Shown piece by piece: positions 46,701-49,700 of a stretch of 64,000 bases of DNA. Location of the stretch: the NCBI RefSeq assembly GCF_022539315.1, contig NC_066332.1, positions 1,860,001-1,924,000 of the forward strand, read 5' to 3'. The stretch's first letter is position 1, and each line of letters starts with the position of its first letter. The notes under the pieces are model-generated. The model was not told the DNA's origin. It did not search any database and was given only the letters and a program-made list of their open reading frames with translations. The translations under genes and the position numbers were made by a program. Source of the DNA: Serinus canaria. Its lineage: Eukaryota > Chordata > Aves > Passeriformes > Fringillidae.

Positions 46701-49700
46701 CTGTTTAAAGCTTTACAAGGTTAAAATATCTGTTTTCACAGAAGGTGAGGTATAACTGTATTTTCCTTTTCTTGTGTGTTTATTTGCCGTGTGTTTGTTG
46801 TGCCACAGGCAGAAATAGAGGATGCAGTGCTTTGGCAGCCTGAGCTGGGTATTTCCTGCAAACAGCTTGTGTCACAGTGGAGTTTTTGTGTGGTGCTGTG
46901 TGAGCCTGGCTTGTGAAGAGCAGGAGATAGAAAGTGACAGGGAGATGAGGCTCCCTTTGGAGTCTGTGTGGAGACTTGAGTGGGTGCAGCCAAGGAGAAA
47001 CATGAGCTTGCTGCTGGCAGTTGGAACCAGCTGATAACTGGGAGCTGAGCCTGCTTTTGTGGCTGCTGGCTGGGAGGAGGATGGTGTGGCTCCATGGGGG
47101 AGTTGTCTCAATCAGTTCGTGCACTTTTGAGGAAAGATCAACTTGTGTGTGTAGATACAAAAACAGGAAAGGAGTGAAAGAGAAATTTGGATGGGGTGTA
47201 ATTGGAGACAGTGGTGTCACAGCAAGTTCATAGAAGTGGTTTGAAGGCAAAGCAGTTGAGGAAGGAGATTTCCCTAAGCAGGTGGAGTTGTGGTATTACT
47301 CTGAATTCCAGGGATATCTCCTGTAGAATTTAAGGAGAGCACACTGAGATAGTCGGAATTACTCAGCCCTCCCAAGGGAAATGTGAGTAAAACATTTGAG
47401 ATGTCACTCAGCACAAAATGTTGCTGTTCAGCCTATGAAAGTAAAGTAGTTTTTCTCCCTTCCAAGGGAATCAGGAATGTCCACAAATCCTGATTGCCAA
47501 TTAAATATCCAGACAAAATAACTGAATTTAGGACATTTCTACTTCTTCAGACAGGGAAGCGAAGAGTAAATCTCAATGAAACACTTGATTGATCCTGTTC
47601 AGCCTCCAAGGAGCACATCTTCCCCTGTGTTCTTCTAGTGATGCTTGGAATATCAAACCAGAGGAGGCAGTTTTTAGAACCCTGTTGTGGTGCTTTGATC
47701 CTGTGTCAGCTTAGGCTGAGGCTGGGCAAGGATGTTAAAGGAGCGGGGGGACCTGGGGACACCGCTGGGCCTGGCTGTTGTAACATCCCACAAACCTCTG
47801 AGACACTCTTGAGGACATTGCCAATTCTCCAGAGCTAAACCTGTGCTTTCTGTCTGTTTTTTGCCTGGTTTCTCCCTGCAGCAGAGTGGCCCAAGACCAT
47901 GACAGGCCTGCCCAGCACGTCGGGGACCACGGCCAGCGTGGTGATCATCCGCGGCTCCAAGATGTACGTGGCGCACGTGGGCGACTCAGGAGTGGTGCTG
48001 GGGGTCCAGGACGACCCCAAGGATGACTTTGTGAGAGCTGTGGAGGTGACACAGGACCACAAGCCAGAGCTTCCCAAAGAAAGGGAGAGAATTGAAGGCC
48101 TTGGGGGCAGGTAGGTGTCACTGTCATTCTCTGGAAAAATCCCCTTGCCCAGGATTCTTCTCCTGGGAAGCGAGAAGCCTTAGAGAAAAAGGAAAACAAT
48201 ATTATCTCATTTGCTTCTCCTGTGTTGTGCTGCTTTGGAATGTGGTTTGGATATTGTTTACCAACAGGTGATTGTTCATTGGTTTCATGTGAATTGTTTT
48301 TAATTATTGGCCAATTATGACCGAGCTGTGTCAAGGCTCTGGAGAAAGTCACGAGTTTTTAGTTATCATCTTTTAGCCTTCTGTCTGTATCCTTCTTTAG
48401 TATAGTTTTAGTCTAGCATTCTTTTATAGAATATCATAAAATAATAAATTAGCCTTCTAAGAACGTGGAGTCAGACTCATTCCTTCCTGCCATGAGGGAC
48501 CCCAGGAAGTACCACAGGTAGGTTTGTCTGCTTTCACTGAGCTAAGCTTGAGTTTGTTGTGGGAGGGCACACAAGGAGCTGAATCTCAGCTATTTCTCCT
48601 TTGTCCTCTTAATTTTTCTTACAGCTTACTGGGGAATAAATTACAGGGATCCATTGTTACACGGTTCTGGTTTTTGGTAGTGGTTTATGGTGTATCCAGA
48701 ATTTTAATTTCCTGGTGGATGACACAGCTGAGGGGTAGTTACAGTTCTGAATGTTCACCAACAACTTTTTGCAAGCAGAGATGTTAATTTTTAGCCTATT
48801 TCCCTTTAAGTTCTGAGGAACCTTCAGGTTGTGCAAATTGCCTTTTCATGAAGGTAAAATGATAGGAAGTCTGGAATATCCAGTTTGTCACAGCACTGAT
48901 TTCTCAGGCATCCTGCATTGTCCCCGAGATGACAATGGCAGCTGTTGAATAGACTCCTCAAAGCCTCTGCCTAGGGAACATGAGAAAAATCCTGGATTTG
49001 AAACAAAACCCTCTCTTTGCTGTTCTAACACCACAGTTTAGCACCTGTCCTTGCAGGAGCCATTCCTTCCCTGGCAGATGCTGGCACACCCGAGCTGGGC
49101 TGGGTGTGTTCCCTGGGACTGAGGGGCAGCAGGCAGGGCTCTGTCAGGTGGCACAAATGTCTGCAGACAACCCCCAGGGCTGGGATCTGGGAGCTCTGTG
49201 TCCTCCTGGTGCTGCACCAGATGGATGGGCATGGATTGCTCCTCGAGCAGGGATCACTGCAGGTTTTCCTGCTGACATCATTCATCTGGGAGCCCTGTCA
49301 GCCCATTAACCTGCAGATATTTGTGTCTCTGGCAGGTGGGAGTTAATCAGGGGCTGTTTTGCTGTAGGTTTCCAGGCTGTTTCTCAGAAGTTGGAAGTCT
49401 CTGAAGGTGCAGAAAACCATTCCCTGAAACTTAGTATTGACAGGAATGGTTAATTTTAATTTTTTTTTTTATTTTTATTTTTACTGGTGCTCCTCCTGTT
49501 TTTCCCAGGCTGGCTCTGAGCATGTGGTGGGGGTGAGGTGGAACTGTGCAGCTGTGCTTGGGAATGTCTCGTCTTTCATGAGAGCAAACTGGGAACACTT
49601 AATGAGAGAGCATGAGGGAGTCTTCCATTAAAATGCCATTTTCCCAGTAACAGTCTGAGTGTGGGATGATTTTTTTTCCCCAATAGTGAGCTTTGTGTGG

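Follow-up and report, generated by a model that had tools for sequence, protein, structure and literature searches.

A probable solo LTR on the duplicated exon 2 splice donor of PPM1D

In introners, target duplications supply splice sites and the inserted DNA is spliced away, so far as the accessible part of the report describes them (PMC9860276). The available text on [D1,2] stwintrons places an insert within the donor of an existing intron, with a working internal intron between donor nucleotides 1 and 2 (PMC12403724). Retroelements can also be removed by splicing: in the sections at hand, the Doc1053 intron gain of Drosophila sechellia is presented as a retroelement that is spliced out and has its target duplication at the 5′ end of the intron (PMC3296678), and ONSEN intronization in Arabidopsis as an LTR element that is spliced out and gives alternative starts and ends (PMC12112155). 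In birds, the excerpted account of henny feathering in chicken documents an endogenous retrovirus (ERV) in CYP19A1 that has a 6-bp target duplication and is associated with altered expression of the host gene (PMC6712707). The portion of the passerine survey available to us describes ERVK solo-LTRs of about 400 bp that are found mostly in Passerida, where they underwent a burst, with on average 45.72% of them species-specific in Passeri; one copy, of 405 bp and close to ITGA2, increased luciferase activity in chicken fibroblasts (PMC11009239).

PPM1D encodes a phosphatase of the p53 pathway. In the 64-kb stretch of DNA analyzed here (the window), its exon 2 donor is followed by a 401-bp block that, if it is an LTR insertion, would have features in common with each of these systems. 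There are also differences. Introners create new introns, whereas the PPM1D block lengthens an existing intron at its donor, and would do so as an LTR; the window holds one copy of the block, at an exon junction that 107 of the 120 homologues listed share, so that no new intron was formed. Stwintrons contain a working internal intron, whereas the internal acceptor at PPM1D looks poor, and removal of PPM1D intron 2 in one step gives an identical mRNA. Neither Doc1053 nor ONSEN is described, in the accessible sections, as a solo LTR that duplicates a pre-existing donor. The CYP19A1 ERV is a provirus with two LTRs plus gag, pro, pol and env, and the excerpted account describes no hit on a splice donor. 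The words ‘splice’ and ‘intron’ never occur in the main text of the passerine survey, in the portion available. Among the open-access matches listed, judged by title and the start of the abstract, a target duplication that rebuilds a donor had no printed equal, which is weak evidence of absence; none of the open-access matches listed for avian PPM1D carried PPM1D in its text. If the block is an LTR, the PPM1D case differs from the known ones in that a solo LTR lies in an existing donor and the donor was copied whole.

Insertions into a splice site are expected to destroy it. If the block is an LTR, it shows how a gene can be shielded from an insertion by the duplication that the integrase makes in the same event. 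Any LTR with a 6-bp duplication over a donor may keep both copies working, and the CA end of an LTR together with a following G makes CAG. Songbirds carry so many ERVK solo-LTRs that self-repairing hits of this kind could be counted across a genome to obtain their rate. The locus would also show, in a natural setting, which of two identical donors 407 nt apart the spliceosome takes, and whether the duplication made by an LTR can supply that LTR with a first exon.

The PPM1D gene and its two identical donors

The coding span of PPM1D runs from 43286 to 61574 on the + strand. It comprises six coding exons, all on the + strand, with an open frame of 589 aa and GT/AG at all introns: exon 1 (43286-43724), exon 2 (47882-48110), exon 3 (50660-50784), exon 4 (56677-56867), exon 5 (57750-57989) and exon 6 (61029-61574). 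Exon 2 ends in phase 2 (GGC AG), and exon 3 provides the acceptor partner for either of the two donors described below. The frame that contains exon 2 (47839-48114) matched the Pfam family PP2C (E 8.2e-20), and the exon 6 frame matched no Pfam family. The 589-aa product matched PDB entry 8t2j, ‘Protein phosphatase 1D’ (E 4.8e-196).

Homologues were listed with the 375-aa fusion of the presumed LTR to exon 3 as query, and the best 120 of 800 matches are considered here. Among these, the nearest full-length relative is PPM1D of Pseudopodoces humilis (P0001, a cluster of 163 sequences), with 96.1% identity over 589 residues, which makes an oscine songbird the most likely host. Splicing of the left donor to exon 3 yields the protein junction GLGG-S-V-I-NKSG, and the pattern GLGGSV[I/M/V]NKSG was found in 107 of the 120 homologues listed (I in 83, M in 22 and V in 2). 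The pattern is absent from the other 13, eight of which are without any NKSG; three of the 13 (P0046, P0060 and P0096) are missing exons 1-3 or more. The first-pass annotation had named the gene as PPM1D and given the edge and phase of exon 2, and the gene model agrees with it in these points and in the coordinates.

The exon 1 donor of the gene (43722-43730, TGC/GTAAGT) has a C at position -1 and scored low (0.17) with an approximate matrix. Its use gives the junction KKLPEW, which is present in P0001, P0012, P0020 and P0057, and 8t2j has KKLAEW at this place. Elsewhere in the window, minus-strand frames at 34742-35209, 20378-20815 and 16938-17249 resemble what we take to be APPBP2, a neighbour of PPM1D; these APPBP2-like frames (16938-35209) begin in a GC-rich stretch near 35 kb. 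Rfam returned nothing within the 64-kb window at gathering scores.

The sequence CAGGTAGGT (CAG/GTAGGT) occurs on the + strand at 48108-48116 and at 48515-48523, 407 nt apart, and at no other site on either strand of the 64 kb. The left copy adjoins the end of exon 2 at 48110, and the right copy can also be read as an acceptor-plus-donor CAG/GT junction. Within the two copies lies a perfect repeat, GGTAGG, at 48110-48115 (left) and 48517-48522 (right), both on the + strand, which we read as a target-site duplication around the block at 48116-48516. Both junctions read CAG/GTAGGT because the block starts with T and ends with CA. Thus, the claim that the gene carries two identical 9-base donors 407 nt apart holds to the base, with the addition that they are the sole two in 64 kb; the positions and termini given earlier for a 6-bp GGTAGG duplication around a 401-bp TG...CA block were likewise reproduced.

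With the same approximate matrix, both donors scored 6.02, the top value among the 155 GTs between 48050 and 50600, and 14 of the 3231 + strand GTs in the window reached at least this score. The predicted accessibility of the donors, obtained by folding with flanks of 50, 75 and 100, was 0.33, 0.40 and 0.32 for the left donor and 0.39, 0.18 and 0.18 for the right one. A third, fair donor (CAG/GTGATT, 48265-48273) lies inside the presumed LTR and scored 4.9 vs. 6.02.

Origin of the 401-bp block

The block at 48116-48516 is probably a solo LTR that sits on the PPM1D exon 2 donor. It has TGT...ACA ends, and hence the TG...CA termini of an LTR, and is flanked by a duplication in the 4-6 bp range, GGTAGG, which is present twice and perfect. 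Its GC content is 38.9%, and on the + strand it would be in sense orientation to PPM1D. Promoter and poly(A) motifs stand in the order and place that they have in an LTR, as motifs only: a TATA at 48425-48428, with a further TATA at 48401, and an AATAAA at 48443-48448. No partner LTR or internal region adjoins the block, which has no second copy in the 64 kb and directly abuts PPM1D exon 2 and its intron. The size of 401 bp and the 6-bp duplication fit a passerine ERVK solo-LTR, compared by description. The best reading of these features is a class II (alpha/beta, ERVK-like) LTR in sense to PPM1D. In the accessible part of the literature on chicken, an ERV with a 6-bp target duplication is documented (PMC6712707), and chicken ERVs are described as having TG/CA ends, 4-6 bp repeats and LTRs of about 200-350 bp (PMC2329609). 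Against a solo LTR, the block, at 401 bp, is longer than the chicken LTRs in the latter description.

A solo LTR at this place would have arisen in steps. A class II retrovirus would have integrated in sense to PPM1D, with a 6-bp staggered cut covering the exon 2 donor, that is, the last base of the exon and the first five of the intron, and later recombination would have left the 401-bp solo LTR. We infer the retroviral origin and this insertion history. The earlier statement that the insertion could persist only thanks to the duplication of the site by the integrase is likewise an inference, about selection.

An unlikely alternative is that nothing was inserted, the 401 bp having long been part of the intron and the second CAGGTAGGT being a cryptic donor that arose by chance. 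It is consistent with the search for other copies, since none was found in the window or in the non-avian sets. A blastn search of the block against the 64-kb window returned the block itself plus chance matches of at most 20 bases, and one against plasmids and phages returned nothing. Exact patterns from the block were found in no viral contig and no prokaryote genome contig, two contigs aside. In these two, the matching stretches were of 17-22 bases and not collinear with the block, and they were set aside as chance. A translated frame of the block had three words in common with no protein, and the PPM1D exon 2 frame had no relative in the viral contigs. Absence of copies from the phage, plasmid, viral and prokaryote sets says little because these sets are not avian.

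The frequency of such repeats bears on the same alternative. The expected number of CAGGTAGGT in the window is 0.39, and when the window was shuffled 100 times, 6 of the shuffled sequences contained at least two copies. Of the 9-mers in the window, 1.03% have a further copy 150-1000 bp downstream, or 0.73% when the count is limited to 9-mers with at most three copies. Among 5000 first-order random sequences of 1 kb, CAGGTAGGT was present in 21 and CA plus GGTAGG in 62. Frames of 250-1000 bp with TG...CA ends and 6-bp repeats are common, at 134 per strand in the window. An old intron with a cryptic donor is favoured by the abundance of such frames, by a recurrence of about 1% or 0.4% for a 9-mer and by the 6 shuffles in 100 with at least two copies. 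Against it, the repeat sits at an exon edge, the termini fit the rules of an integrase, and TATA and AATAAA are placed as in an LTR. TGT...ACA ends are present in 5 of the 134 + strand frames. A tail with TATA and AATAAA was found in 3 of 134 frames on the + strand, all of which enclose the AATAAA at 48443, and in 2 of 134 on the - strand (5 of 268 on both strands), so that such a tail is rare in frames of this kind.

These data suggest that (i) the odds of a chance repeat at the edge of exon 2 are about 0.4-1%, for a site chosen post hoc; (ii) the repeat at the exon 2 donor is more than chance would give, though here too the site was picked afterwards; and (iii) the block is composed like an LTR and stands at an exon edge, although an insertion is not proved by the statistics alone.

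Insertion of a different mobile element, such as a DNA transposon with an 8- or 9-bp duplication or a retroposed piece, is very unlikely. Read at its longest, the repeat spans 9 bp (CAGGTAGGT), so that duplications of 5 to 9 bp are formally possible. However, none of the inverted repeats of at least 12 nt between 47900 and 49000 joins both ends of the block, a terminal A tail is absent, and a 6-bp duplication with TG...CA ends fits an LTR exactly.

The reading of the right copy as an acceptor-plus-donor junction raises the alternative of recursive splicing, in the manner of a stwintron: the left donor would first be joined to the CAG at 48515-48517, restoring CAG/GTAGGTTTG, and then to exon 3. 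The right junction does read CAG/GTAGGT, and the presumed empty site would be restored if 48111-48517 were excised. The pyrimidine tract is poor, however, with 7 of the 16 positions before the CAG being pyrimidines, vs. 11, 11, 13, 13 and 15 of 16 at the five true acceptors, and 71% of the 1897 CAGs in the window have an equal or better tract. Recursive splicing is therefore very unlikely.

Predicted transcripts and proteins

With a solo LTR at the donor, normal splicing from the left donor, and with it normal PPM1D, is expected from the sequence: the left donor would be spliced to exon 3, the LTR would leave with intron 2, and the product would be the normal 589-aa protein. The left donor is probably preferred over the right one because exon 2 measures 229 nt with the left donor vs. 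636 nt with the right one, and because the left donor comes first. Exon definition should favour the form with the shorter exon 2.

Use of the right donor, or retention of intron 2, reads AGG TAG after residue 222 and gives a product of 223 residues. Residues D303 and D355, which align with D314 and D366 of the 605-aa primate PPM1D (P0079), lie beyond residue 223, and D94, which corresponds to primate D105, is kept. We take D303 and D355 (primate D314 and D366) to be metal ligands. The 223-residue arithmetic and the loss of the two aspartates had been proposed in the first-pass annotation and stand as given. Its claim that intron retention leads to a stop is correct as to AGG TAG, but the same stop is read with or without the insert. 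Its further claim that the right donor yields a protein of about 223 residues is correct as to the frame, but the mRNA should fall to nonsense-mediated decay (NMD), because the stop lies upstream of four exon junctions. The right donor would then contribute, as a minor product, an NMD-targeted mRNA.

A second minor product, perhaps, is a 223-residue isoform made through cleavage at the AATAAA of the LTR. If cleavage took place there before removal of intron 2, the stop would lie in the last exon and a 223-residue protein could be made; a stable truncation should therefore require polyadenylation at the LTR. U1 bound at either donor may suppress cleavage at this AATAAA.

The duplication might also have given the gene two donors with separate jobs, the left one serving transcripts from the PPM1D promoter and the right one an LTR-driven first exon that is spliced to exon 3 and encodes a 375-aa isoform, an arrangement that we consider unlikely. 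The exon side of the right donor ends one base past the LTR, which is also the end of the would-be R-U5 part of a transcript. From the TATA at 48425, such a first exon would cover about 48455-48517. It would contain the sole ATG of the block downstream of that TATA, at 48492-48494 (+ strand, with G at -3), which reads MRDPRKYH and, via the right donor, stays in frame through exon 3 and up to the natural stop, giving 375 residues. When 48450-48517 was shuffled, 2610 of 20000 random versions had an in-frame ATG, and a start with MRDP or RDPRK was present in 0 of the 120 PPM1D proteins listed. This frame is therefore a lead and not a finding. If it is real, the 375-aa PPM1D would keep the tail but be missing D94 and half of the phosphatase domain, namely the first half. 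Such an isoform would be specific to the lineage, probably without activity and possibly interfering, and it would be made in those places in which the LTR is active.

Alternative splice sites are also found farther downstream in the gene. The exon 5 acceptor lies beside and within a 54-bp minisatellite (57524-57771), and a 30-mer around AG/GGCGAGG occurs there four times, one copy having one mismatch, with the AG ending at 57563, 57617, 57671 and 57749. The three upstream acceptors shift the start of exon 5 by 78, 132 and 186 nt; they are in frame but reach a stop, giving 346, 338 and 338 residues. PPM1D thus has two equal donors at exon 2 and four near-equal acceptors at exon 5, with a stop following the use of any spare site. 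Among the sparrow homologues, PPM1D of Zonotrichia albicollis (P0050) has a garbled stretch in the part that corresponds to exon 5 (57750-57989 here), and isoform X2 of Ammospiza caudacuta (P0057) is without exon 5. This disturbance of exon 5 in the two sparrow records is perhaps due to the minisatellite.
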